Positions 1-23,277 of a stretch of 23,454 nucleotides of DNA are shown here, in pieces. Source of the DNA: a virus. Both the position numbers and the translations under genes were made by a program. The notes under the pieces are model-generated. The model saw only the letters and a program-made list of their open reading frames with translations, was not told the origin of the DNA and did no database searches. The stretch lies in the IMG/VR virus record IMGVR_UViG_3300017759_000089, positions 1 through 23,454 of that record, one strand, 5' to 3'. Position 1 is the stretch's first letter. Every line of letters starts with the position of its first letter.

Positions 1-33
1 GGACGCAGGCCGACGCGCGAAAAGGACCCGCAG

Positions 34-205
34 TTGTTGTTAATATATAAACAACAATTGCAATTGATTTGTATTACTAATAAATAGCGATTACTAAATG
101 TTAATTAACATTTATATGTTATACTTTTTGCTCTACTTATTAGCTTCACGGCCTACTTTTTGTTAATTATAATTAATTAAATGTAGCCCCGCTAAATGTT
201 ACTTA
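34..205. other. AT-rich palindromic intergenic island
   Basis: This is a strongly AT-rich stretch just left of very GC-rich DNA. It holds an 8-bp inverted repeat TTGTTGTT/AACAACAA (34-41 and 50-57), a perfect 20-bp palindrome at 95-114 centred on TTAATTAA, and a second palindrome, TTAATTATAATTAA, at 163-176. No reading frame of gene-like length is seen. Such a block could be a promoter region, a protein-binding region or part of a replication origin; the sequence does not decide. Positions 1-33 carry no recognisable gene end. Confidence 0.6.
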
Positions 206-494
206 AGGTGCGCGATCGTGCGCACCCCTGAGCGCTAATGAGCGGGGGCGAGCGTGGCCGGATCCGGCGGGTAGTGGCGGCCACAGGGCGGCGGGCCGCA
301 GCGGCAGGGCGCAGGGCGGCACAGCCAGCAGCCGGGCAGCAGGGCGCTCCCTAGGGGCGCAGCAGCAGGGCGCAGCCCCTCAGCCCCTCTCAGGATCGCC
401 TCAGGCAGGCCGCGGCATAGCCGCAGGGGTCGCAGTGCCGGCAGGGCGCGGCGGACCTCTCAGGGCCTCTCAGGCGCCGCAGCGATCGGCAGGC
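206..494. repeat. GC-rich low-complexity CAGGGC-rich non-coding stretch
   Basis: About 290 bp without a credible gene. A short hairpin at 207-226 (GGTGCGC/GCGCACC arms) opens it. From about 280 the DNA is dominated by irregular reiterations of CAGGGCG, GCAGCAG and CCTCTCAGG. It lies beyond the leftward terminator at 495-527, so it is probably untranscribed from the gene cluster. Spacing is irregular, so it is not a clean tandem array or a CRISPR. Function unknown. Confidence 0.55.
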
Positions 495-527
495 AATAAA
501 AAACCCCCGCCCGGTTAAGGGCAGGGG
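495..527 (-). terminator. Rho-independent terminator ending the leftward cluster
   Basis: Read on the minus strand, CCCCTGCCC, a 6-nt loop and GGGCGGGGG (one mismatch in nine pairs) are followed by TTTTTTATT. It sits about 25 bp past the last gene of the minus-strand cluster, where a terminator is expected. Confidence 0.8.
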
Positions 528-551
528 CAGGGGCAGGGGTTGAGGGGGCGG

Positions 552-779
552 CTAATGCGTCAACAGGGGCGACTGAAGCGACAGCGTGGCATCAGACAGG
601 TGATCCCAATCGATGCCGTTAATGCCGTTGCCGTCTTGCCGGATCCACAGGGTCACCCTGTGGTCAGCGATGCCGAAACGAACATCAACTACCACACCAA
701 GCTCGCAACCGTCGGCCGTCGTCACGACTGCACCGATTAATGCGGAAACAGGCAGGTCGCCTGTTGGTTGGATTTTCAC
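552..779 (-). CDS. Small hypothetical protein, 75 aa
   Basis: This is the last gene of the GC-rich leftward cluster. It starts at GTG 779-777, three bases after the stop of the GP88-like gene, so translational coupling is likely, and it ends just before a strong terminator. The protein has no membrane segment or cysteine cluster. Its middle alternates hydrophobic residues (VVTTADGCELGVVVDVRFGI), suggesting a small beta-rich fold. I do not recognise the family. Position and coupling support a real gene; the function is open. Confidence 0.6.
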   Translation of the reverse strand: MKIQPTGDLPVSALIGAVVTTADGCELGVVVDVRFGIADHRVTLWIRQDGNGINGIDWDHLSDATLSLQSPLLTH

Positions 780-782
780 AGC

Positions 783-1874
783 TCAGCCCTCCCACGTCAG
801 CAGGGCCGAGCCATCGGCCAGGTGCTGCGGCATCCCGTGGGCGGCCAGGCTGAAAGCGTCGGCCTCGGGGCCACAGCCCCGGGCATTCTTCAAGCGCAGC
901 AGCACGGCCACGCCGTGGGGGTCGGCCCACCTGTGGTCACCCCCGGCGTCACCGTCGACGGTCGGCACGGTGATCGACTCACCCCCGGTGGTCAGGGTGA
1001 GAGCCGAGGGCAGGGGGGCGCCCTTGCGGACCCGTACGGGCACAGCCAGGCGGAAGCCATGGCGCAGGGCATCCATGCCCCGGCGGCAGGCCGTGGGGGC
1101 GTCTGGCTTGAATGAGCTGGTGACGTCGACGGGGCCGGCGTCTCGCTGCGCGATAAGTCCTAGGGAGCCCTCTACGGGGGCGGCGCTGTACTCGTAAGGG
1201 CGCAGCTCGGGCAGGGCGGCCAGGCGGGCGGGCATGGTGATCGCCTCGCCGGGGGTCACGTCGACCCCATACCGGGCGGCGATCGCGTCGGCTTCTGCTG
1301 GGGTGATCGGCACCCGTTGCAGGTGGTGGGGGTGGTCATCCGTGCCCCTCAGCCTGACGGCCAGGGGCAGGCCGTCCCGGCGGGCCCGCAGCAGGTGGCG
1401 CAGCACAGAGAAAAACAGGGCCCGGGCGAAAACCTCGGGGTCGGCCAGGCGGGCCAGGGTCCGGCGGCCACGGGCAGCGACAATCGGGTTCTTCTCAGGC
1501 GACCCCATGCCGGCATGGCCAGCCCATGCCAGGCAGGCGCCACCGGCGCCACCACAGCCGGCTGTGGCCCATGGGCAGCCGTTGTAAGCACGGGCCTTCT
1601 GCGTCAGGCCGTGGGCCTCAGCCAAGGCGAACAGCTCGGGCACGAACGACCGCGGGCCGCCGGCCGAATTGTCGGGGTTGATCGCCTCGGCCAGGGACTG
1701 GGCGGGCAGCGTGTAAAGGATCACGGAGCGAGCGCGGGCTTGGCCGTGCCGCAGCTTGGGGCTCTGCCGGTCAGTGGTGAGCAGGGTGGCGGTTGTTAGG
1801 CCGAAGCGCTGCAACAGGGCGCGGGCATCGGCGGGCACGGCGCAGGGCCGCGACGGGTTGATCAGGGCGGGCAT
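783..1874 (-). CDS. GP88-like phage protein with Cys-rich motif
   Basis: A 363-aa protein from ATG 1874. The frame is open further up to 1922, but that would overlap the upstream gene, and the 1874 start carries the CGTTGCTCCC leader also seen before the gene at 3354. A central motif has cysteines in CPWATAGC, a Gly-rich stretch and ACLAWAGHAGMG, followed by an AARGRRTLARLADPEVF helix. This order (C-x5-C, CL, A/S-G-x-G, AR-x-R-T, then F) is that of a phage and plasmid family I associate with mycobacteriophage GP88. No activity is established for that family as far as I know; the cysteines might bind metal. It is the largest gene of the cluster and lies 20 bp downstream of the preceding gene. 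Family assignment moderate, function unknown. Confidence 0.75.
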   Translation of the reverse strand: MPALINPSRPCAVPADARALLQRFGLTTATLLTTDRQSPKLRHGQARARSVILYTLPAQSLAEAINPDNSAGGPRSFVPELFALAEAHGLTQKARAYNGCPWATAGCGGAGGACLAWAGHAGMGSPEKNPIVAARGRRTLARLADPEVFARALFFSVLRHLLRARRDGLPLAVRLRGTDDHPHHLQRVPITPAEADAIAARYGVDVTPGEAITMPARLAALPELRPYEYSAAPVEGSLGLIAQRDAGPVDVTSSFKPDAPTACRRGMDALRHGFRLAVPVRVRKGAPLPSALTLTTGGESITVPTVDGDAGGDHRWADPHGVAVLLRLKNARGCGPEADAFSLAAHGMPQHLADGSALLTWEG

Positions 1875-1894
1875 GGGAGCAACGGGTAAAGGGG

Positions 1895-2260
1895 TCAGAT
1901 CAGGCCACACAAGACGAGCCAAGAATCAGGGTCATCCGGCTCAACGGTCCGGCCGTCCGGCGTCTCGGCCATGCCGTCTAAGGTCCACCGCATGGCGTCG
2001 GCGTGCGACGGGACGACGTGCCAAGCATCGCCAAAGCGGAGCCGTAGCACCTTGTGAGGGCCAAATTGGCCCACGTCGCCGGTGGTGAGCAGCCAGTCGC
2101 CCGTTTCGGGATGCTTCAAGCGGCGGCGGCCACCGTGGGGGCTGCGGGCAATGCGGATCGTTTGGTCGGCGTTGCGCTTCAAAAGGGTGGGGGCTAGCAG
2201 CAGCTGCTCAGCTGCGACGGCTTCCCAGTGGGGGGCCGTCCAATCGGTGCGGTGGGTCAT
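1895..2260 (-). CDS. Hypothetical protein, 121 aa
   Basis: The ATG overlaps the stop of the upstream gene by 4 bp (ATGA), so the two are probably translated together. The protein is rich in Trp, Arg and Asp. It has a basic stretch near residues 30-50 (RIARSPHGGRRRLKHPETG) that could touch nucleic acid, but no recognised domain. The composition is very GC-rich, like the rest of the cluster. Not recognised; it could be a small nucleic-acid-binding phage accessory protein, but that is only suggested by charge. Confidence 0.7.
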   Translation of the reverse strand: MTHRTDWTAPHWEAVAAEQLLLAPTLLKRNADQTIRIARSPHGGRRRLKHPETGDWLLTTGDVGQFGPHKVLRLRFGDAWHVVPSHADAMRWTLDGMAETPDGRTVEPDDPDSWLVLCGLI

Positions 2261-2601
2261 GACTCAGGGCGGCGAGGGGCAGGGAGGGGCAGGACGTCGG
2301 CAAGGTTGGCCGGGCCGACCGGGTAGCTGTAACGGTCGCCGCCGTCCATCGACAGGGCGGCGCCGAGCACTTGCCAGTGCTCAGACCGTGGGCGATTGGT
2401 CAGGCGCTCGGCGTTGTAAACAGCCACGGCGGCCCATGCTGCGGCGTCCGGGCCGTCATTGAACGGGACGGTCGCCCGGTACTGGTCGCCGCGGCCGCGA
2501 CCGCGGCGGATCACGGCGACCCATCGGCCGCCGAGCGTATTGGTGGGGCCGCGGTACTCAACGGCGCAGCCGGGAACGTATCGGAAGGGGTAAGAAAACA
2601 T
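2257..2601 (-). CDS. Phage accessory protein, 114 aa (GPTNT motif)
   Basis: Starts at ATG 2601 after a pyrimidine-rich leader (CCCCTTGCCCTT), similar to the leaders of neighbouring genes. The N-terminal half reads YRGPTNTLGGRWVAV, then basic RRGRGRG and YRATVPFNDG, then an Ala-rich helix. I recall small actinophage and other phage proteins of unknown function with the same pattern: a GPTNT-x-G turn, a strand, a basic turn, V-P-F/W-D/N, then a helix with A-A-A. It is coupled to the next gene by ATGA. The role is not known; the family link is from memory and moderate. Confidence 0.65.
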   Translation of the reverse strand: MFSYPFRYVPGCAVEYRGPTNTLGGRWVAVIRRGRGRGDQYRATVPFNDGPDAAAWAAVAVYNAERLTNRPRSEHWQVLGAALSMDGGDRYSYPVGPANLADVLPLPAPRRPES

Positions 2602-2626
2602 AAGGGCAAGGGGTAGGGGTAGGGAT

Positions 2627-2902
2627 TCAGGCTTGACAGGCGCCTTCAGAGAGGCCTTGGTTGATCCAGTCGGTCAAGTCGCTAACGAGATCGGCCCACG
2701 ACTCCCACGGGTAGCCGTCCTGATAGCGGTCGCCGCACGGCTCTCGCAAGTACCAGACAGGCAGGCCCTCGGAGTCCTTGGCGGGTTCGATTGTCCAGCC
2801 GAGGGAGCATTCTTCAAACAAGCCGCGGAACTCATAGGCCCGCAGCTGCACCCCATCGCGCCATAGGTCGGCCGGATGGGGGCGGGTTGGATCGTTGAAC
2901 AT
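2627..2902 (-). CDS. Hypothetical acidic protein, 91 aa
   Basis: I place the start at ATG 2902, two bases after the TGA of the upstream gene (TGATCATG). A TTG 15 bases earlier in the same frame would overlap that gene and is less likely. The protein is acidic and Trp-rich, ending in an amphipathic helix (SWADLVSDLTDWINQGLSEG). No signal peptide or membrane segment. Not recognised. The alternating hydrophobic and acidic C-terminus suggests a small single-domain soluble protein. Confidence 0.6.
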   Translation of the reverse strand: MFNDPTRPHPADLWRDGVQLRAYEFRGLFEECSLGWTIEPAKDSEGLPVWYLREPCGDRYQDGYPWESWADLVSDLTDWINQGLSEGACQA

Positions 2903-2904
2903 GA

Positions 2905-3096
2905 TCAGGCGAGGCAATAACGGCGGGCGGTGGTGTGGGCGATCCCAAGGCGGGCGCCGATGGTGCGGTAACTGTGACCCCGGCGGCGCATCCGTTGCGC
3001 CCGCTGGCGGGGTGATTCAGTGACCCACAGGATCACTACGACAGGCAGGAGAACGCAGACGGCCAAGACGGCCGCCGCGGTGGTGATGGTGGCCAT
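2905..3096 (-). CDS. Membrane-anchored helix-turn-helix protein, 63 aa
   Basis: Residues about 4-25 form a clear hydrophobic segment (AAAVLAVCVLLPVVVILWV). It is followed by a basic linker and, at about 35-61, by MRRRGHSYRTIGARLGIAHT and TARRYC, which fits the resolvase/Hin-type helix-turn-helix (G-x-S-x-R-x-I-A-x-x-L-G-I-x-x-T-x-R-R). The protein therefore looks like a DNA-binding head on a single membrane anchor. The positive residues lie after the helix, so by the positive-inside rule the HTH faces the cytoplasm. It lies 3 bp after the two-helix membrane protein at 3100-3354 and 2 bp before the next start, so it belongs to this operon. A tiny membrane-tethered regulator or DNA-membrane tether is an inference. 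Confidence 0.7.
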   Translation of the reverse strand: MATITTAAAVLAVCVLLPVVVILWVTESPRQRAQRMRRRGHSYRTIGARLGIAHTTARRYCLA

Positions 3097-3099
3097 TGA

Positions 3100-3354
3100 T
3101 CAGGCATCGGGGTCAAGAACGCGGCCAGCGACGGCAACGCCAGAAGCGACGCCGCAGGCAACAAAGGAAAGGGCGGCCAGGTTGGCGGCCTTGGATGCGG
3201 CGGCGCTGCATCGGGCGGGCCCGATGGACTCAGGGCACAGGGCGCCGGTGGTGGCGATGACGCCGAGGATCCCGAACAGGGACACAAAGGCGGCGACGCC
3301 GGAAGCGCCGAGGCCAGCGCCGGTCAGGGTGCGGGCAATGGTGAGACGGGACAT
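3100..3354 (-). CDS. Small membrane protein with two predicted helices, 84 aa
   Basis: Two hydrophobic, Gly/Ala-rich segments (about 12-36 and 57-78) flank a short loop with two cysteines (ALCPESIGPARCS) that could form a disulfide. The start at 3354 is supported by the CGTTGCTCCCATG leader shared with the gene at 1874. A perfect 8-bp stem hairpin lies upstream at 3379-3399. It is the first gene of the leftward run that includes the membrane-anchored HTH protein. The size and two-helix layout would also fit a small holin-like protein, but nothing specific supports lysis. Function unknown. Confidence 0.65.
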   Translation of the reverse strand: MSRLTIARTLTGAGLGASGVAAFVSLFGILGVIATTGALCPESIGPARCSAAASKAANLAALSFVACGVASGVAVAGRVLDPDA

Positions 3355-3378
3355 GGGAGCAACGAATAAGGGTTAAGG

Positions 3379-3399
3379 GCGGCAGGGGCCGCCTGCCGC
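3379..3399 (-). promoter_or_regulatory. Leader hairpin upstream of the 3100-3354 gene
   Basis: A perfect 8-bp inverted repeat, GCGGCAGG and CCTGCCGC, with a 5-nt loop lies about 25 bp upstream of the ATG at 3354. It has no T-run, so it is not an ordinary terminator. It could be an operator or an RNA leader structure. Confidence 0.45.
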
Positions 3400-3411
3400 A
3401 AACAATACAGC

Positions 3412-3446
3412 AACGGGTGAGATCTGCACAGTGCCCCTCACCCGTT
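3412..3446. repeat. Hairpin repeat, copy 1 (AACGGGTGAG...CTCACCCGTT)
   Basis: A perfect 10-bp inverted repeat with a 15-nt loop. A near copy with the same left arm and much of the loop lies at 3729-3764. The pair brackets the small gene 3514-3665. Possible operator or mobile hairpin. Confidence 0.6.
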
Positions 3447-3477
3447 CTTCTGGAATTCTTAACAATCGGGCGCGGTC

Positions 3478-3506
3478 AAAAAATCGCCCCCGCGGTGGGC
3501 GGGGGC
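3478..3506 (-). terminator. Rho-independent terminator
   Basis: On the minus strand GCCCCCGC, a 5-nt loop and GCGGGGGC form a perfect 8-bp stem, then GA and six T. It lies 8 bp past the stop of the 50-aa gene at 3514-3665, making that gene a separate leftward transcript. Confidence 0.85.
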
Positions 3507-3513
3507 AGTGGGG

Positions 3514-3665
3514 TCACTCGGGGCGCTCCTCGGCCAGCATGGCGTCGGTGGCATCGATCAACCGGCGAGTGTCGGCGACCAGCTCGGCCAGGCGGCGGTC
3601 GGACTCCTCAGACTCGGCGATTAGGGCCGCGAGGCGGGCGCCGAGGGTGTCTGCGATTAGTCCCA
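3514..3665 (-). CDS. Small helical coiled-coil protein, 50 aa
   Basis: I chose ATG 3665, which follows TGTTGCCCCCT, close to the GTTGCTCCC leaders of two neighbouring genes. The open frame continues up to 3843, but that part is Pro/Arg-rich and does not look coding. The 50-aa product is almost wholly helical and highly charged (LAALIAESEESDRRLAELV and a following helix), with leucine-type spacing typical of a short coiled coil. It is followed at once by a strong terminator. It is the nearest leftward gene to the LexA-type boxes about 370 bp upstream, so it is a candidate, not a proven, SOS-controlled product. Confidence 0.55.
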
Positions 3666-3728
3666 TAGGGGGCAACAGGTAACAGGTAACGCGGGCGCGG
3701 GTGCGCCCGTTCATCCATCCTACCACCC

Positions 3729-3764
3729 AACGGGTGAGATCGCGAGCAGGGCCCCTCACCTGTG
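3729..3764. repeat. Hairpin repeat, copy 2
   Basis: AACGGGTGAG at 3729-3738 pairs with CTCACCTGTG at 3755-3764 (8 of 10). It copies the hairpin at 3412-3446. A third, arm-only copy, ACGGGTGAG, is at 3807-3815. Confidence 0.55.
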
Positions 3765-6362: not shown

Positions 6363-8885
6363 CTAAATGAGACCATCTAGCGGCACCAGCGTCGCTCTGC
6401 TCGTTCCCATAGCGGGATACCGCAGCGGTGACGACTTTCGGGCGCCAGGGAGCCGTCCAAGTGATCTTTTGTACGCATTTCCGCTCCACGGAGTTTCTTT
6501 CAGCAGCGACTGAAGGTTGCTGTTGTTGTTAGACACGGCGAGCATTCCTTCGTGGTACTTCAGGCCATAACGAGCGATAACTACATTCGGATCCTCAGAT
6601 CCATCCCTACCATGTGTAGCTGTAATAGCACCACGTTGAGCCATTCCGATTAACTCACGAAGGGTGATTCGCCGGCCATCAACAATCACCATCGAGTCAA
6701 TAATGTGCAGCAAGCACTTGTGCTCATCGGCCTCATCTGCATCAGGCTTGTCGGCTTCCCAGTTCATGGATTCCACCATGGCGATGGCGGTGTCCAGGCT
6801 CACCACCTGACAGCCATCAGGGCTCAGCGAGAAAAAGCCAGCTAGCAGTGTTCCATTCTGATCGCCGAAACGAGCACCGAACTTTCGGCCAAGTGCAGTC
6901 GAGAAAGTTCTTGCGTTCTGGCGGATCACCGGGATGTTCTTAAGTGTCCTAGCGATTAATTGGCGGCCGTTGTCCTCAGTGCAAGCGGTAAGAATGCGTT
7001 GCTCAAACTTCCGCCAGAAGTCCTCTTCTTGGCTGTCATCGCGCATCAAGCCAAGAACACAGAAGCGATCGATGTCAGCTTTCTGGATCAGGTTGACGTT
7101 GATGGATGAGACGCAGAACATGCTGCGGATCTCAAAGCTGTTGGCGCCACCAGAGGTTGTGCCCTTGTAGATCTTGCCGCCTTCAGAGGATGCGATGCGT
7201 GCAAGGGAGAGGACGTTTTGGACTGTTTGCTTGTCGCGGGCCTCGTTCTGCTCAAACTCGTCGAATACCACTGGGATGGCGTCGGACTTGAGGGTGCCGC
7301 GAAGGCCGGCTTCAGTGGTGCCGCCAGTTGCTGACTGGCAGATCCCGCCAAGCAATGGCCGCATGAAGTACTTGAGGATGGTGGTCTTGCCGGTGCCGGC
7401 TCCACCTGTGATCCAGATGTGAGGCCGCCAATCGAGGGCGCCACAGACTGGCGCTAGGACAATCCAGCCAAGAAGGAATGCGCTTGAGGCATCGGTCTTC
7501 TCCCAGCTGAACTGCCGAGCGATGGCGACGAGTTCAGCGCATACGGCGTCAGAGAGGGTCTCGTCCGAAGGGCCGTTGATGGATTTGGCGTGTTCGTAGA
7601 AGTACCAGGACTGTGGCGGGTTATCGATGTCGAGGTGATGCGGATCCTTGTCCTGCTCAACAACGGTCAGCCGATTGCCGCAATGCATGATGACTCGATG
7701 TGAGTCGTACCAAGCGCCGCGGCCACGAACGCGGTCAGGGTCGTAGATGCCTTGGTCTTTGCAGGCTTTGATCAGGCTGTCAGCGGCCTCATCCCAGTCG
7801 ACGGTTGCACCTTTGGGGAAGAAGGAAGCCCACCAGCCGAGTGGTGCGAGGTTTAGGAGACCAAGCTTAATATGTCGAGAATCAGAAAGAGCAATAACCT
7901 GACCGCCATCACTAGGGAGGTAGTAATAAGAGCCTCGGTCATGACCAAGGCATCGAAATGGTGCTGATGAGCCGAGTCGGTCTTCGTCTTCTGGTTCATC
8001 GTCGACGTGAACTTCGCCGGTTTCAGGGATGACTTCTGGTGGGGTGTATTCATCGAAGTTGCTTTTGAGGTAATCGCGTGCTTCGTCTTGAGACCATTCG
8101 GCGTCAGCGATGTCCCAGCCTTTGGGGACGCCTTCAGGTGGCCTGACGATGCGTATGGTTTCAGCGCCAAGGCAAAGAAGCTTGTCGGCAACGGCCTGCA
8201 TCGCAGCGCGGCCTTCGTCATCAGCATCGGGCCATAGGAAGATTTTGCGGTCTTTAAGAGGTGAAAAGTCGGTTTTACCGTGACCTTTACAGCCACCAGA
8301 CCATGTGGTGCAGGCAAGGGTTGGGAAGTATCTTGCTGCTGCTTCGCAGGCTTTTTCGCCTTCAGTTACGACAACCCAGCCGGTGGTCGCCCGGATTTTG
8401 CCGAGGTTGTAGAGAGGCTTTGAGTTTGCTTTTTTGTAGTGGTCTGGGAGCTTGGCTTGCCATTTTGTGCCGTTGAACCAGTACTGGCGGAAGGTTTTGC
8501 CGGTTTTGCTGTCCGGCCGCCTGATGACAACGAAGTCATCGGCGTAGCGATAGACCGCTTCAGCCCCAGCAGTTGGCGGCTCTGGGCGTGCCTTTGCGAT
8601 GCCGAGGTGACGTTCCACTTCTGATGCAGCTCGCTTGAAGTCCCAGTTGTTTTTGCGCATGAGCATGTCCATGCCGCTGCCAGCACCGCCGGACTGGGTT
8701 TTGCCACCGCATTTGTTGCAAAACCAAGAGCCGCTGCCGTCTTGATCGTCAAAGCGATAGCGATCAGTGCCGCCGCAAAGTGGGCATGAGCCGTGCTTGT
8801 TTTCCAGCTGCTTGCCAGTTAGGCCAGCGAGGGCACCAAGAATTGAGGGCCAGTGGCCCTTAGCGGCTTCGCTTATGTCTTGCAT
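6363..8885 (-). CDS. Primase-helicase (zinc ribbon + TOPRIM + P-loop helicase)
   Basis: An 840-aa replication protein that would make primers and unwind DNA at the phage fork. Domains in order: a primase zinc ribbon with C34, C37, C56 and C59 (CPLCGGTDRYRF and WFCNKCG); a TOPRIM fold with VVVTEGEKACEAA (about 171-183, catalytic-type Glu) and FLWPDADDEG (216-225, metal-binding Asp residues); an acidic linker (about 285-305); and a helicase domain with Walker A GGAGTGKTT (494-502) and Walker B VVFDEFE (539-545), of the DUF927/P4-alpha-like type. All key residues appear intact. The start overlaps the TGA of the ribbon-helix-helix gene, so the two form one leftward operon that may be self-controlled through that regulator. 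The origin-like repeats lie directly downstream. Confidence 0.9.
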   Translation of the reverse strand: MQDISEAAKGHWPSILGALAGLTGKQLENKHGSCPLCGGTDRYRFDDQDGSGSWFCNKCGGKTQSGGAGSGMDMLMRKNNWDFKRAASEVERHLGIAKARPEPPTAGAEAVYRYADDFVVIRRPDSKTGKTFRQYWFNGTKWQAKLPDHYKKANSKPLYNLGKIRATTGWVVVTEGEKACEAAARYFPTLACTTWSGGCKGHGKTDFSPLKDRKIFLWPDADDEGRAAMQAVADKLLCLGAETIRIVRPPEGVPKGWDIADAEWSQDEARDYLKSNFDEYTPPEVIPETGEVHVDDEPEDEDRLGSSAPFRCLGHDRGSYYYLPSDGGQVIALSDSRHIKLGLLNLAPLGWWASFFPKGATVDWDEAADSLIKACKDQGIYDPDRVRGRGAWYDSHRVIMHCGNRLTVVEQDKDPHHLDIDNPPQSWYFYEHAKSINGPSDETLSDAVCAELVAIARQFSWEKTDASSAFLLGWIVLAPVCGALDWRPHIWITGGAGTGKTTILKYFMRPLLGGICQSATGGTTEAGLRGTLKSDAIPVVFDEFEQNEARDKQTVQNVLSLARIASSEGGKIYKGTTSGGANSFEIRSMFCVSSINVNLIQKADIDRFCVLGLMRDDSQEEDFWRKFEQRILTACTEDNGRQLIARTLKNIPVIRQNARTFSTALGRKFGARFGDQNGTLLAGFFSLSPDGCQVVSLDTAIAMVESMNWEADKPDADEADEHKCLLHIIDSMVIVDGRRITLRELIGMAQRGAITATHGRDGSEDPNVVIARYGLKYHEGMLAVSNNNSNLQSLLKETPWSGNAYKRSLGRLPGARKSSPLRYPAMGTSRATLVPLDGLI

Positions 8886-18708: not shown

Positions 18709-18906
18709 CTACTTAGGTTCCTTTAGAGCGCTCTTTTCTTTGTGATAAGCACCCTTTTCGTGCATTTCGACCACATCTCGTACCCAAGGGACTAGCCAGT
18801 CATTGACTCTTGAACATTGGTCCCAGTTCACAGGCTTGGCGCATTGCAGCACAACAGTTGTCCAAAACGCACTAATAAACGCCCAGATCCAATAAAACTC
18901 ACTCAT
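18709..18906 (-). CDS. Single-helix membrane protein, 65 aa
   Basis: The N-terminus WIWAFISAFWTTVVLQCA forms one membrane helix. The rest is soluble and charged, with a basic end (YHKEKSALKEPK). Its start overlaps the peptidase stop by 8 bp, so the two are likely coexpressed, and it may act with the peptidase at the membrane. A spanin- or holin-like role is conceivable but not supported by a lipobox or a coiled coil. Confidence 0.6.
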   Translation of the reverse strand: MSEFYWIWAFISAFWTTVVLQCAKPVNWDQCSRVNDWLVPWVRDVVEMHEKGAYHKEKSALKEPK

Positions 18907-19639
18907 TAACCAAGATCACCCAGCCCGTGCCTGGGCCGTTCGCTTGCCACCGTTGATAGAACGCAGCTTGCCTCACACGGACATTACGTCCCAAATGCGG
19001 GTTGCTATGGCCTCCCTTCTCCATCTCGGGATACCCTCTCGGATCTTGCATGATCCACTCTGGATCGTTGCTGTTCTTACCCGCGTAACCACTGATTACG
19101 CTCCAATGCCCGCAACCTAAACCGCTGCACATTGGTGGTTCGCCACGAAGCATGTTGCCTGCGTGCAACCAACCAACCAGCACAGGCCTGCCGTTTTCGA
19201 CCTCAAGCTCAACCATGTCAGCATCGCCATCTTTGCGAAACTCAGCTTCTAGACCCAAGCTCCGCAACGCTGCTAGCTGAGCTTCTACCGAAGTGGTGTC
19301 GCCAAATTCAGCACGAATCGCATTGTATTGATCATCCGTGCGAACCTTCTTGTAATACGCAGCCACCATGGCCGCCGCTGAACTAAAGCATTCCCGATGG
19401 CCGGTTCCTGTCTTGTTATCGAGCTGTCTGAAGTAGGGCATGTAAATCTGCTGGTCATACCCGCTTTCTTTCCAGGACTGAAACCAATCAGCTTCGTTTT
19501 CTTCCAATAATTGCGGCGGCAGCGACTCTTCAAGCTGTTTAACAGCAGCCAACTGGTGGGGCGTACCACGAAAAAACTGGAAAAACGGCAACAAAGCAAG
19601 GGCCATTACTACCAATACAGCAGCTGACGCGCCAATCAT
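18899..19639 (-). CDS. Membrane-anchored C39-like cysteine peptidase
   Basis: A 246-aa protein with an N-terminal membrane helix (residues about 4-23) and a papain-like C39-type domain. The catalytic triad appears as Cys84 in HRECFSSAAAM, His178 in GCGHWSVISGY and Asp199 in IMQDPRG, at family spacing. C39 peptidases cleave after double-Gly leaders in bacteriocin export, but cyanophage versions lack the ABC transporter and their target is unknown. No transporter or bacteriocin precursor is near. Candidate substrates are the exported proteins at 20.4-22.1 kb, or host envelope proteins during lysis. It is followed by a small membrane protein in the same operon. Confidence 0.78.
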   Translation of the reverse strand: MIGASAAVLVVMALALLPFFQFFRGTPHQLAAVKQLEESLPPQLLEENEADWFQSWKESGYDQQIYMPYFRQLDNKTGTGHRECFSSAAAMVAAYYKKVRTDDQYNAIRAEFGDTTSVEAQLAALRSLGLEAEFRKDGDADMVELEVENGRPVLVGWLHAGNMLRGEPPMCSGLGCGHWSVISGYAGKNSNDPEWIMQDPRGYPEMEKGGHSNPHLGRNVRVRQAAFYQRWQANGPGTGWVILVNE

Positions 19640-19660: not shown

Positions 19661-19834
19661 CTATTTATCGACGCGAGAAGTTGGGAACAGCAAGTCTTTG
19701 AGATGCTTGACTGCCAAGTCATCTAGGTCGTTGTCGGTTTGCTTGACGACCCGCTCTAGCATCGCGACGATCAGTTCTTTAAAAGCCTTTGACCTGGCCA
19801 TTGACAGTAGCAATGGCTTGAGAATCAACAACAT
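19661..19834 (-). CDS. Small helical protein, 57 aa
   Basis: Begins MLLILKPLLLSMARSKAFKE, continues LIVAMLERVV and ends LKDLLFPTSRVDK. An amphipathic N-terminal helix and a second helix suggest a membrane-surface protein. I recall very similar short proteins starting MLLLLKPLLL in Synechococcus phages. It is 22 bp upstream of the peptidase start on the same strand. Confidence 0.6.
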   Translation of the reverse strand: MLLILKPLLLSMARSKAFKELIVAMLERVVKQTDNDLDDLAVKHLKDLLFPTSRVDK

Positions 19835-19861: not shown

Positions 19862-20113
19862 TTAGTTCCGATCGCTATGGCCCTCAAGTCGCGCTACTGA
19901 TCGCTCTAACTCGGCCAGTCTGCTGAAAATTTCTTGGTCTCTTGTTCTGATATCGGCGTGGAGAACATCAAGGCGACCGGCTAAATTGTCTACAGCAGTT
20001 GTCAGGCGTACCAAGGAGTCTCGACCTTGCTGGTTTTGACGGGACAGCCCAGTTAACCCAGCAGAAGCAACTCCTATGCTTGCCCCAGCGACTGCAGCCC
20101 AGACTTCAACCAC
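19862..20113 (-). CDS. Small membrane-anchored coiled-coil protein, 83 aa
   Basis: GTG start. Residues 1-22 (VEVWAAVAGASIGVASAGL) are a weakly hydrophobic membrane helix. The rest is a long coiled coil (RLTTAVDNLAGRLDVLHADI and EIFSRLAELERSVARLEG). Similar proteins occur in Synechococcus phages in my recollection. Inner-membrane spanin-like or a scaffold role would fit the layout; neither is shown. It diverges from the gene at 20140 over a 26-bp gap. Confidence 0.65.
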   Translation of the reverse strand: MVEVWAAVAGASIGVASAGLTGLSRQNQQGRDSLVRLTTAVDNLAGRLDVLHADIRTRDQEIFSRLAELERSVARLEGHSDRN

Positions 20114-20139: not shown

Positions 20140-20421
20140 ATGGCAGAGACGAAAGACTTGCAAGAGCAGGAACAGGAGGACCAAAACAGCTCTTGGCTAG
20201 GTGACGTTGTACGAGTCACTATCCTGCTTTGGTCAATGGGCATCTTGACCGCCAACTACCTTGGTATTTTTTCGCAAGCGGTAGACCCAACGTTTCCAGC
20301 CAGCTTGCTTACTGGGACGGCAGCGACTTACACGCCAGCATTGGGCAAGTTGAATAAGAAAAAGAAGGACGACAAAACCGTTAACGTAGACAATAAGGAC
20401 ACCAAAGCCGGAATCCAATGA
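20140..20421 (+). CDS. Single-helix membrane protein, 93 aa (possible holin-like)
   Basis: An acidic, Gln-rich N-terminus is followed by a hydrophobic segment (about 23-45, VVRVTILLWSMGILTANYLG) and a basic then acidic tail (KKKKDDKTVNVDNKDTK). The layout resembles small cyanophage membrane proteins sometimes labelled holin-like. The stop overlaps the next ATG (ATGA), linking it to the run of exported proteins. Lysis function is unproven and no endolysin is in the window. Confidence 0.6.
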   Translation: MAETKDLQEQEQEDQNSSWLGDVVRVTILLWSMGILTANYLGIFSQAVDPTFPASLLTGTAATYTPALGKLNKKKKDDKTVNVDNKDTKAGIQ

Positions 20422-20912
20422 AAAAGGCACTTCTGGCACTAGCTGCCAGCTTGCTTGCCGCTCCAGCGCAGGCAGACATCACGCATAGAATCCAGTCAAG
20501 CGTTTCGCTGTCGGTTGATGGAGCGGGATCCGTTGCAATCCGGCAGCCGAGTTCACTGGCAATATCTGGCTCTAACGTCACTTTGGACACTGCTAGTAAG
20601 TTCACTGCATTTAGTTCCGGTACTGCCCTCGGTTACACTCCTGGCGTTTACAGCATTACCACTGCTGGTGATGCTTTCAGTTACAGCGAAAGCTATACAG
20701 AAGGAGACGACGTTCCAACCGTCCTCTCAACAACAGTCACCGCCGGAGTAGTCCCAGCACTGCCGGTGTTCGGCAATACAACGACCACATCAGGCGGAGT
20801 CGCTGGAACACTAGCTGGCACGATTGCAACTGATGGCGCTATTTCGGTGACTGCGGGTTCGGCTGGTACTACTGCAATCGGTCAAGTCATCCAAGAACTG
20901 ACAATCAAATGA
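20418..20912 (+). CDS. Exported cyanophage-type protein, 164 aa (first of three)
   Basis: A clear signal peptide, MKKALLALAASLLAAPAQA with cleavage after Ala19, precedes a Ser/Thr/Gly-rich, strand-rich mature protein with repeats such as TTTTSGGVAGTLAGT and VTAGSAGTTAIGQ. I recall close relatives in Synechococcus phages with no assigned role. The repetitive beta pattern suits a secreted or envelope-exposed protein. It overlaps the next gene by ATGA. Confidence 0.75.
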   Translation: MKKALLALAASLLAAPAQADITHRIQSSVSLSVDGAGSVAIRQPSSLAISGSNVTLDTASKFTAFSSGTALGYTPGVYSITTAGDAFSYSESYTEGDDVPTVLSTTVTAGVVPALPVFGNTTTTSGGVAGTLAGTIATDGAISVTAGSAGTTAIGQVIQELTIK

Positions 20913-21328
20913 TTCTGTTGCTGCTTTTGCTTGTTGCCGCACCAGCAGCTGCGGTGCCTGTGGTGCCTAACTTTTCGCAAGGCGTTCTCTCCTCCACAAC
21001 AACGACCAAGACCAAAGTCACAGAAGTCATTAACTCGTATGAATACCGGACGGGCTACGAGCTATCGGTTAGTGGCACAAATATCAAGACTGACGCTGCT
21101 ATCGCTCCAATGGGTCTGACGACAACGTCAAACACCATTCAGGGCATCACCAGTAAATGGACCAGCCTTGATGCTGCAACTAAGCCAACCTGGACAATTG
21201 TTAATGAAGGCGAAGCGTTCCAGATGGTAGAAACTTTGTCCGGCCCAGGTTTGGTCAACCATACACTCATCAACCGTGACACCGACATTGAATCTATAAC
21301 TGAGACGACAAGTACCTTTACCCAATGA
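20909..21328 (+). CDS. Exported cyanophage-type protein, 139 aa (second of three)
   Basis: Signal peptide MILLLLLLVAAPAAA with likely cleavage after Ala15. The mature part is Thr/Ser-rich and strand-rich (TTTKTKVTEVINSYEYRTGY; GPGLVNHTLINRDTDIESIT). It shares the general style and SYSxxE-like pattern (GEAFQMVETLSGPG against GDAFSYSESYTEGD) with the preceding protein, hinting at a common fold from duplication. ATGA coupling on both sides. Unknown function. Confidence 0.75.
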   Translation: MILLLLLLVAAPAAAVPVVPNFSQGVLSSTTTTKTKVTEVINSYEYRTGYELSVSGTNIKTDAAIAPMGLTTTSNTIQGITSKWTSLDAATKPTWTIVNEGEAFQMVETLSGPGLVNHTLINRDTDIESITETTSTFTQ

Positions 21329-22053
21329 AGCGAGTCATAGCAACGCTTTTGCTGCTTTCCGCTCCAGCACAAGCTCAGGTTTCCAGCACTGCTGCACCAG
21401 TTGCAAACAGTTCGGGAAGTGTCACAAACCAAGCTGTGCAGGTGGTGCCATCACGCACATTCGGGTTCAACTATGCAGGTATATCTTGTCAAGGAGCGAC
21501 TCTTCACATCAATCCTTTTCTAAGTACAACTACTAGCTGGGCACATCCCTATGAGAGCTACTACCAAGAACCGGTATACGACACTCTCGATTTGGTGGGC
21601 ACGACAACTCCGGAGGGGATTGCCGCCCCAGACGGCGTCCCTGATAATCCGGGCAATGTCCTTTACTATCGTCCAATCAGGACGGGTCAAAAAACTAATT
21701 ACTCAATCAACGGCGGTATTACAGCCACGATTTCAGTACCGCTTGACCGCTCCCACGTTAGAAGCTGCAGAAAAGCAGCTGAAAAGCAGGTGGCATTGCT
21801 GGACGCCCAGCTTGCTGACAAGCGACTTAACTACGAAATCGCCAGGCTTAAAAACTGCGCTTCACTGATGAAAGAAGGCATCAGCTTTCACCCTGACAGC
21901 CCTTACAGCAAAATCTGTGCTGACGTAGTCCTGCAAAATCCGCCAGGCGTCATCCCGCCCCACATCCACAAAATCACTTACGGAGAGAACGCTGAAACTT
22001 CACGCGCTCAGCAACAGACTCAGGGCGAGGCTTCTTCCCCAGCATCCCCTTGA
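21325..22053 (+). CDS. Exported cyanophage-type protein, 242 aa (third of three)
   Basis: Signal peptide MKRVIATLLLLSAPAQA with cleavage after Ala17. The mature protein begins with a Val/Ser/Asn-rich part (APVANSSGSVTNQAVQVVPS) that I recall in Synechococcus-phage proteins. It has Cys in ISCQGATLHINPF, a NPGNVLYYRPIRTGQKTNYS segment, a C-terminal helix around paired cysteines (RSCRKAAEKQ, RLKNCASLM, SKICADVV) and ends near PPHIHKI. Disulfides and export to the periplasm or cell surface are likely. The last 80 bp overlap the end of the opposite-strand Pro-rich gene; the final ~25 residues may be an extension. Confidence 0.75.
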   Translation: MKRVIATLLLLSAPAQAQVSSTAAPVANSSGSVTNQAVQVVPSRTFGFNYAGISCQGATLHINPFLSTTTSWAHPYESYYQEPVYDTLDLVGTTTPEGIAAPDGVPDNPGNVLYYRPIRTGQKTNYSINGGITATISVPLDRSHVRSCRKAAEKQVALLDAQLADKRLNYEIARLKNCASLMKEGISFHPDSPYSKICADVVLQNPPGVIPPHIHKITYGENAETSRAQQQTQGEASSPASP

Positions 22054-22750
22054 GCTTTTTAACTGTCTTTTTGACAGTAGGTTTGACCAGCTTCAACACA
22101 TACTCACCTAACGGTTTTGCCACGATGGCTGACGTTGCAGCCGTTGCGGCAATCACGCCAGTCGTCAGTGCAACAGGTGCGGGTGGCAGGTAATTGTCGA
22201 TAATCTTGTCGATTGGCAAGCGTTCATACAGCGTTATGCACTGACCATCAACACGCTTATATCCAATGACAATCCCAGTGCCCTGCTTGCCTCTGACACC
22301 AATAGGTAATCCATCCAGTGGCGGGCATGGCAGTTGGTTGCTATCTAATGGGATGTCAGGAATGCCACTACCTGGCGACGGAAGAGGGGCTACCGGTTGG
22401 TTTGATTCACCAGCCGGTTTTTCTTTCTTGGGCTCTACCTCTTCTTCTGGTGGCGGTGGAGGTTTTGCCGCGCCATACACCAGCGTTCCAGGCGTGTAGT
22501 CGATTGGTTTGTACGACGGCATCTGCCCGCCGCAAACAGTGATGTTGCCCTTTGGATCGGTGTTGTAGATCTCACTGTCACCTGCTGCTGAGTTCCTGGT
22601 CTCTACACAGCCAGGGATGTCAGCAACAGGAAAACCGATTTGTAACGTCACCGGCGGCGCAACCGGAATACTCTGTGGAGGCATGGCACGCCAAGCCGGG
22701 ATCTCCGGCACTTGCACCGCACCAATACCAATCTCAGGGATTTCTGGCAT
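21974..22750 (-). CDS. Pro-rich protein with C-terminal membrane helix and basic tail, 258 aa
   Basis: Begins MPEIPEIGIGAVQVPEIPAW, with Pro-rich and VTLQIGFPVADIPGCVETR segments, then a Pro/Glu linker (PPPPPEEEVEPKKEKPAGE), a Cys-containing domain (QLPCPPLDGLP; DGQCITLYERLP), a hydrophobic helix (VALTTGVIAATAATSAIVA) and a very basic tail (PTVKKTVKKLKGMLGKKPR). I recall the same opening and order in Synechococcus-phage proteins. A membrane-tethered tail-like or cell-envelope protein is suggested. Its ATG overlaps the ATG of the plus-strand gene at 22749 (CATG), and its end overlaps the third exported gene by 80 bp. Confidence 0.7.
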   Translation of the reverse strand: MPEIPEIGIGAVQVPEIPAWRAMPPQSIPVAPPVTLQIGFPVADIPGCVETRNSAAGDSEIYNTDPKGNITVCGGQMPSYKPIDYTPGTLVYGAAKPPPPPEEEVEPKKEKPAGESNQPVAPLPSPGSGIPDIPLDSNQLPCPPLDGLPIGVRGKQGTGIVIGYKRVDGQCITLYERLPIDKIIDNYLPPAPVALTTGVIAATAATSAIVAKPLGEYVLKLVKPTVKKTVKKLKGMLGKKPRPESVAERVKFQRSLRK

Positions 22751-23063
22751 GAAGGGTGAACGGTTTGTTGCTGGTCAGCTTTGGATCGAGAGAAACCGTA
22801 GACGCGAAGGACCTGAGATCACTTACACAGTTTTGTGTGGCAGGTCGTCTCGGCTTTTTACAGATCACAAAATGATCTTGCGCCACATTAAATGGCCAAA
22901 GGGCACTCCGACAGGAGATTCATTACGCGAATGGCTAGGGTCGTTTGAGCAGAAAGCGGAGACACCCGCGCCAGAACTTGACATGGCGAAAATCAAGGCG
23001 AAAGGCTTTGGGCCTGAAGCTCATGACGACGATCCAACTGCTAACACTAAAATGGTGACTTAA
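22749..23063 (+). CDS. Cyanophage-type small protein, 104 aa
   Basis: The frame is open upstream to 22617, but that part lies opposite the Pro-rich gene and looks non-coding. ATG 22749 is the natural start. The product has strands (FVAGQLWIERN; EITYTVLCGRSSRLF), a basic helix (KMILRHIKWPKG) and a TGDSLREWLGS helix, then an acidic tail. The WIERxRRxEGPxxTxTxLCGRxxRxFT pattern is one I recall from Synechococcus phages. It overlaps the convergent gene at 23047 by 17 bp. Unknown function. Confidence 0.6.
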   Translation: MKGERFVAGQLWIERNRRREGPEITYTVLCGRSSRLFTDHKMILRHIKWPKGTPTGDSLREWLGSFEQKAETPAPELDMAKIKAKGFGPEAHDDDPTANTKMVT

Positions 23064-23277
23064 TCGGCAAGCCAGTCTCTGTCGGCAGTTCTGGCATCGC
23101 TTTATCGATTTGGCTAGGGATAGCCTCTGTCACTTCGCCAATGACATCGCCGGTTGCGTCCTCCAAGTAGTCCTCAATCATTCCTGGAACGCGAGCAAAC
23201 GCAACGATTGTCGCTCCAACCAACGTTCCAGACATCAGGAACGCCAGCACTGATAGAACGTTGAAAACCTTTTGCAC
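23047..23277 (-). CDS. Small membrane-anchored protein, 76 aa
   Basis: Residues about 5-27 (FNVLSVLAFLMSGTLVGATI) form one membrane helix or uncleaved signal. The rest is acidic, with VTEAIPSQIDKAMPELPTET and a Pro-rich end. I recall the MQKxFNVLSVLAF opening and AMPELP ending in Synechococcus-phage proteins. It follows the partial gene at the window end on the same strand, 11 bp apart. Unknown role, probably in the envelope. Confidence 0.65.
   Translation of the reverse strand: MQKVFNVLSVLAFLMSGTLVGATIVAFARVPGMIEDYLEDATGDVIGEVTEAIPSQIDKAMPELPTETGLPIKSPF

Follow-up and report, generated by a model that had tools for sequence, protein, structure and literature searches.

The stretch of DNA considered here (the window, 23,454 nucleotides) is positions 1 to 23,454 of the IMG/VR virus record IMGVR_UViG_3300017759_000089, and it carries a cassette of small genes, shared with many cyanophages, in which every core product is an exported or a membrane protein and which may serve in host lysis or egress. 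We letter the genes A to G: A, B, C and D lie on the plus strand, E and G on the minus strand, and F on the plus strand between those two. All positions are those of the window.

20140 to 20421, plus strand: gene A, 93 residues, holin-like candidate; DUF6450 (PF20048; Pfam E 9e-14), phrog_721/21865/2714, family of Syn9 gp161 / T4-GC218
20418 to 20912, plus strand: gene B, 164 residues, signal peptide and all-beta exported domain; phrog_564 (E 2e-39), Syn9 gp167 / T4-GC237, 'OMP1' in the S-CAM1 and S-RIM8 records
20909 to 21328, plus strand: gene C, 139 residues, signal peptide and DUF6322 (PF19847; Pfam E 2e-34); phrog_650, Syn9 gp166 / T4-GC236
21325 to 22053, plus strand: gene D, 242 residues, signal peptide, beta hairpins and a helix of about 42 residues with a conserved cysteine; phrog_848/1755 (phrog_848 E 2e-83), Syn9 gp165 / T4-GC235
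21974 to 22750, minus strand: gene E, 258 residues, proline-rich, with a conserved cysteine; phrog_570 (E 5e-60), Syn9 gp164 / T4-GC234
22749 to 23063, plus strand: gene F, about 104 residues, divergent from E; phrog_37139 (E 2e-15)
23047 to 23277, minus strand: gene G, 76 residues, N-terminal hydrophobic segment; phrog_568 (E 7e-17), Syn9 gp162 / T4-GC414

The initial annotation of this DNA had described three consecutive signal-peptide genes linked by ATGA overlaps and facing a proline-rich, membrane-anchored protein on the other strand, and this is what B (from 20418), C (from 20909), D (from 21325) and E turn out to be. The extent it gave the block, 20418 to 22750, was too small, as A and G also belong. 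The ATGA at 20418 is the first of three four-base stop/start overlaps (A/B at 20418, B/C at 20909 and C/D at 21325), and because it ties B to the gene upstream the unit is A-B-C-D. The 3' ends of D and E overlap by 80 bases, and the convergent arrangement of the two genes is kept in 288 of the 289 loci that have both genes; G follows behind E on the same strand. Membership of F is uncertain. It is present in related siphovirus loci, and it is divergent from E, the two start codons sharing two bases; a longer open reading frame (ORF) for F, from 22617, runs antisense through E and probably does not mark the true start. The PHROG and Pfam families of A, B, C, D, E and G carry no functional description, and the only name among them, 'plasmid stability' for phrog_568, is an inherited annotation and doubtful as a label for G.

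The predicted signal peptides are MKKALLALAASLLAAPAQA followed by D for gene B (site AQA-D), MILLLLLLVAAPAAA followed by V for gene C (site AAA-V) and MKRVIATLLLLSAPAQA followed by Q for gene D (site AQA-Q). A crude rule for such features, applied to the genes of the window, flagged besides these three only a C39 peptidase and G, by their membrane anchors, and a ligase, by an internal segment. When 275 homologues of B, 297 of C and 307 of D were compared, down to about 40% identity, residue -1 was mostly A and otherwise almost always G or S, residue -3 was mostly A, V or S, and a hydrophobic core was present in every homologue, while the peptide sequences themselves differed widely. Since cleavage residues and core are conserved in this way, the signal peptides are not chance features, and they are retained in each cyanophage lineage that has the cassette. 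The other products are membrane proteins. By hydropathy, A has a charged N-terminal region, a clear hydrophobic segment, a second, weaker one and a charged C-terminal tail, as a holin might, and the P-SSP7 record for its homologue 043 notes two transmembrane regions. The single hydrophobic segment of E (residues 193-211 out of 258) lies near the C terminus and is followed by a basic tail, and G has a single hydrophobic segment in 226 of 229 homologues.

The suggestion that the first two exported proteins are duplicates held, as distant homology only. BLASTP finds no match between B and C, whereas profile-profile comparison gives P values of 2e-6 with small alignments and 7e-5 with large ones; the same comparison finds nothing between B and D or between C and D. 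The hhalign score of 33 for B and C exceeds the maximum of 19 reached in 300 column shuffles but not the maximum of 44 reached when columns are shuffled in blocks of 12, so that the score rests on two short motifs, and the link therefore leans on two other results. The hidden Markov model (HMM) of B finds C proteins in S-TIM5 (2e-4), S-SM1 (1e-3) and S-RSM4 (2e-3) and that of C finds B proteins at 3e-3, all as E-values for a small ORF set. Also, the fourth best match of the B model in a viral fold library is a 139-residue protein of phage AP013546 (E 9e-3, probability 1.00, 11% identity), 139 residues being the length of the C protein in that phage. Because profile comparison, HMM cross-matches and fold match agree, B and C are probably old, distant duplicates. 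The fold models were built from alignments of the window and IMG/VR sequences only. The AlphaFold2 model of B (mean predicted local distance difference test score, pLDDT, 77.3; predicted template modelling score, pTM, 0.48) is all beta, and that of D (mean pLDDT 67.5, pTM 0.36) has beta hairpins followed by a helix at residues 125-166 of the mature form. The D model finds its own family in T4-like phages, in T7-like phages (P-SSP10, P-SSP3, S-RIP1, S-TIP37) and in the MEDS5 siphovirus group; rows for TolC-family proteins and pore toxins were discounted at E >2. A PDB sequence search with the profiles of B, C, D and E gave nothing meaningful, and a search of NCBIfam nothing informative.

Families A, B, C, D and E of the gp161-gp167 cassette are all present in the window, and the HMMs of these five families recover the corresponding genes of Syn9 and S-SM1. 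In Syn9 the order is gp161 (A), gp162 (G), gp163 and gp164 (E), facing gp165 (D), gp166 (C) and gp167 (B); the S-SM1 cassette corresponds to T4-GC 218, 414, 219, 234, 235, 236 and 237. Sullivan et al. (2010; PMC3037559) described a cluster of T4-GC 218/219/234/235/237 with a 'plasmid stability' protein in 15 of 16 cyanomyoviruses, all but S-PM2, as possibly mobile and functionally linked hypothetical genes, giving it no function. Because the cluster was described then, the window holds a further member of a known, functionally blank group, with the same families and the same convergent order of B-C-D against E. It differs from the T4-like cluster in that the phage is of siphovirus type, A lies across the convergence and is linked directly to B, and a C39 endolysin lies beside the cassette. 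No gp163-like gene was seen between E and G of the window, where the unrelated-looking F lies, in analyses that included no profile search aimed at gp163.

A tblastn search counted 426 GenBank phage records for D, 408 for C, 389 for B and 349 for E. As a yardstick, CobS, a core gene of T4-like cyanophages, was found in 456 cyanophage-named records (365 + 61 + 24 + 6), and by the comparison of 426 with 456 records the cassette is close to universal in this group. This leaves unsupported the earlier premise that a lytic phage seldom needs so many exported proteins. Hundreds of further copies are present in IMG/VR. The same convergent cassette also emerged from the neighbourhoods of S-TIM5, which belongs to a different myovirus lineage, of S-SKS1, of the Autographiviridae-type phage AP013546 and of 40-45 kb relatives of the window phage, one of which, 44.6 kb long, is a siphovirus carrying J, tape-measure and portal/major-head genes of lambda-like type. 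In P-SSP7, P-SSP10, P-SSP3 and S-RIP1, which are T7-like phages, profile searches detected A, C and D together with a short E-like gene, at E-values of 4e-26 to 5e-18 for A, 2e-23 to 8e-22 for D and 1e-8 to 8e-6 for C; A matches P-SSP7_043 at 4e-26, and D matches P-SSP7_045 at 2e-23. The E-like matches are weak (5e-4 to 0.12), the E-like gene of P-SSP3, for which no match is listed, being suggested by gene position and a look at the sequence only, and B was not found by profile searches in these four phages. The P-SSP7 genes 042-045 and their relatives thus resemble the window in holding families A, C and D with a short E-like protein, and differ from it in lacking a detectable B, in lying on one strand in the order E-A-C-D and in their much diverged C and D. 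The cassette was not found in Syn5, S-SZBM1 or S-H1, nor in the S-PM2 stretches examined.

The named matches to B-E are all Synechococcus, Prochlorococcus, cyanophage, marine or uncultured marine viruses. The cassette thus tracks the host and not the phage lineage, and suits a target peculiar to the cyanobacterial envelope; its description as cyanophage-type, exported and envelope-directed in the initial annotation is borne out. An origin in host genomes or prophages was rejected: among 84,980 prokaryote species scanned there were six loci, all apparent phage sequence, each holding several cassette genes on contigs from metagenome-assembled genomes (MAGs), from single cells or of 188-189 kb. 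These copies (L335 to L340) look like cyanophage contigs assigned to the wrong genomes, labelled Nonlabens xiamenensis (188 kb), Prochlorococcus AG-418-C09 (189 kb) and Bacteroidetes, Lewinella, Euryarchaeota and Gammaproteobacteria MAGs. In T4-like and T7-like copies D overlaps C out of frame by about 120-160 bases (e.g., L087:19214-20110 and L333:38615-39235), with no conserved start codon before the D signal peptide and with annotated D starting far upstream inside C.

The location of the cassette differs among phages and its mobility was already proposed (PMC3037559), as would be expected of a selfish gene group maintained by transfer. In such a group the membrane proteins would form a small system resembling a toxin or stability module, as the name of G hints. 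We consider this very improbable. No transposase, integrase or repeats belong to the cassette, G is a 76-residue single-span membrane protein whose name was inherited, and near-universal retention in T4-like cyanophages suggests a benefit to the phage.

The timing of expression can be approached through the published late promoter of T4-like cyanophages, NATAAATA, whose TAAATA core we sought 60 to 20 bases before the start codons of T4-like copies. It precedes B in 65 of 75 copies, almost invariably at a distance of about 26-35 bases from the start codon, against a background of 1.5% for randomly chosen places and 7.9% for the remaining ORFs of these loci. It precedes A in 55 of 64 copies, and many copies read CTAAATA instead of ATAAATA. 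At that position the core is rare or absent before C, D, E and G (2 of 81 copies for E, 0 of 90 for D). Because the core precedes B and A and not the other genes, the T4-like cassette appears, from these motifs, to consist of two convergent late operons. Siphovirus copies do not use this motif.

Late expression would also be expected if B, C and D were parts of the virus particle or its tail fibres, their signal-like N termini being cleaved by, or misread for, something else, and in siphovirus and T7-like copies the cassette adjoins tail-fibre genes. We regard this explanation as improbable. About 880 homologues in three families retain AxA-type signal peptides, and tailed phages assemble their virion proteins within the cytoplasm, such proteins not being known to bear Sec signals. 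At the level of annotation, the cassette genes are 'hypothetical' in the records of S-SM1 and S-TIM5, which place virion labels on other genes; for S-SM1 the virions had been subjected to mass spectrometry.

In T7 the gene order is 17, holin 17.5, 18, spanins and 19, the holin being a single gene between tail fibre and small terminase and the spanins following the terminase. In P-SSP7 the tail fibres are followed by 042 (E-like), 043 (A), 044 (C), 045 (D), a 57-residue phrog_2738 protein, 046 and the small terminase; P-SSP10 and P-SSP3 agree in placing E-A-C-D between the tail-fibre region and the small terminase, and S-RIP1 has the same block upstream of the small terminase with phrog_2738 preceding it. 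The siphovirus cassettes are flanked by tail-fibre genes on one side and a C39 endolysin on the other. A therefore sits where lysis genes lie, in the 17.5 slot of T7-like phages and beside the C39 endolysin of siphoviruses, and from these two neighbourhoods both kinds of genome place the cassette at a lysis-type locus. The likeness to the T7 lysis locus (holin 17.5, spanins 18.5/18.7) is one of slot, filled in each case by a small membrane protein; A is likened to 17.5 by position and not by sequence, and T7 has no counterpart of the exported beta proteins. In the window the neighbours on this side are the following.

18899 to 19639, minus strand: C39/C70-like cysteine peptidase, putative endolysin; PF13529 (E 1e-5), phrog_10051 endolysin (E 1.5e-59)
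19661 to 19834, minus strand: 57-residue protein, phrog_2738, homologue of Syn5 gp48
19862 to 20113, minus strand: 83-residue protein, N-terminal hydrophobic segment and predicted coiled coil; phrog_26178 (E 3e-26)

The peptidase has an N-terminal hydrophobic anchor, the feature considered here for a possible SAR-type release from the membrane, and its residues C84, H178 and D199, kept in 94 homologues, correspond by sequence to the catalytic Cys-His-Asp of a C39 endolysin. The 83-residue protein has weak matches to Rz-like spanins (E 0.05). The phrog_2738 family (57 residues, with a ...TDNDLDD... motif) recurs beside the cassette: a relative adjoins D in P-SSP7 and P-SSP10 and is fused to the end of D in P-SSP3. 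In Syn5, which has no cassette, the holin slot holds gp47 (a membrane segment and a coiled-coil-like stretch) and gp48 (phrog_2738), and a similar pair lies between A and the C39 peptidase in the window. No holin or spanin annotation was present at the places examined. S-PM2 and S-SZBM1 have C39 and no cassette; a strict complementarity of the two was rejected, since they occur together in the window phage, and in S-CAM7 C39 is accompanied by a D-like fold match. In the T4-like phages without the cassette, S-SZBM1 (L343:9327-10897) and S-PM2 (L091:45535-47801), the C39 endolysin lies near an RlpA-like (rare lipoprotein A type) gene.

The products of the cassette, exported or membrane-bound and common to unrelated phages that infect the same hosts, could also remodel the envelope of the infected cell, masking or closing receptors against a second phage or altering outer-membrane uptake, for example of phosphate, with D pore-like. 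In this respect the strands of D alternate polar and non-polar residues (e.g., NYSINGGITATISI), B bears the name 'OMP1' in some records, and the cassette lies a few kb from pstS in S-SM1, P-SSM2 and S-SKS1. The pstS link, however, holds in some phages only and in generally variable regions, no fold match to a porin was found, and both the late promoters on the two operons and the holin-slot location speak against remodelling. Exclusion genes are as a rule early genes or ones that prophages express. We think remodelling unlikely, and of the roles first offered (remodelling, a superinfection block, a part of the particle) the direction towards the envelope stands, while release fits better than an early superinfection block because of the late promoters in T4-like phages and the holin slot in T7-like ones. 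No relative with a proven different role emerged.

We therefore favour the reading, to which we give a probability of about one half, that A-B-C-D with E and G is a conserved, horizontally shared cyanophage module whose late products act at the envelope, most likely in host lysis or egress. Within such a module the best explanation is that A would be holin-like and B-E would act on the outer envelope. A, in the inner membrane, could open or depolarise it as a holin or pinholin, and this could free or activate the membrane-anchored C39 enzyme or, in other phages, another endolysin. E and G would be further inner-membrane parts, the proline-rich stretch of E spanning the periplasm. B and C, with their related beta domains, and D, with its hairpins and long helix, would be secreted and come together at or within the layer of peptidoglycan and outer membrane, and together with E they could weaken or open the outer layers, doing the work of spanins without being spanins. 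The parallel with the two-component Rz/Rz1 and the unimolecular spanins is a membrane protein with exported partners that could span the periplasm; the differences are that B, C, D and E have no lipobox and that the hydrophobic segment of E is C-terminal. A stronger version, which we put forward only tentatively, is that the cassette is a dedicated non-spanin machine for breaching the outer envelope, made of an inner-membrane holin-like protein, a proline-rich tether and three secreted proteins with folds not found among solved structures, and exchanged as a unit among T4-like, T7-like and lambda-like phages.

Several observations weigh against a function in lysis or egress. We know of no experiment on the function of the cassette, and neither its expression nor its function was found in the open literature. 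No cassette family carries a holin, spanin or lysis annotation, and the late promoters fit virion proteins equally well. The second hydrophobic segment of A is weak in most copies; among known families A matches only DUF6450 and PHROGs without described function, a negative that carries little weight for so small a protein. B, C and D were rejected as o-spanins since their sites are of AxA type, with no lipobox and no cysteine at +1, and E was rejected as an i-spanin, its hydrophobic segment being at the wrong end and not N-terminal, ahead of a periplasmic coiled coil, as in i-spanins. Against solved folds neither B (Foldseek and VIA-align; VIA Z <=2.9) nor D (best Foldseek E 0.55, VIA Z <5) has a significant match. 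T4-like copies lie among replication genes or near psbA and not beside an endolysin. Finally, S-PM2 and S-SZBM1 presumably still lyse their hosts without the cassette.

As regards the genome around the cassette, a near-identity search of the window among GenBank phages found no near match. Its primase-helicase (6363-8885) shares 40% identity with the counterpart in Synechococcus phage S-H1, which has no cassette, and a gene of this type was not found in six cassette-bearing relatives of 34-45 kb; the window genome is thus mosaic. The left end (1-3750) has no blastn match among GenBank phages and includes a weak GP88-like ORF, and from about 750 to 3750 the G+C content is about 67-72% against about 52% elsewhere, so that this end may be a chimeric join of the metagenome assembly or a recent insertion.

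In the open literature we found no account of the cassette in siphoviruses or T7-like phages, of late promoters ahead of its two operons, of the holin slot or of the relation between B and C; a report in a subscription journal is possible. Marine cyanophages account for the lysis of a sizeable part of the main photosynthetic cells of the ocean, and the T4-like ones are without the lysis-inhibition (r) genes of T4 (PMC2984593). If the cassette is a lysis or egress module, a large set of anonymous near-core genes would gain a function, and the way in which phages open the cyanobacterial outer membrane would become testable with existing cyanophage genetics. Even if its role differs, several DUF and PHROG families without described function are tied into one late, envelope-directed unit across phage lineages.

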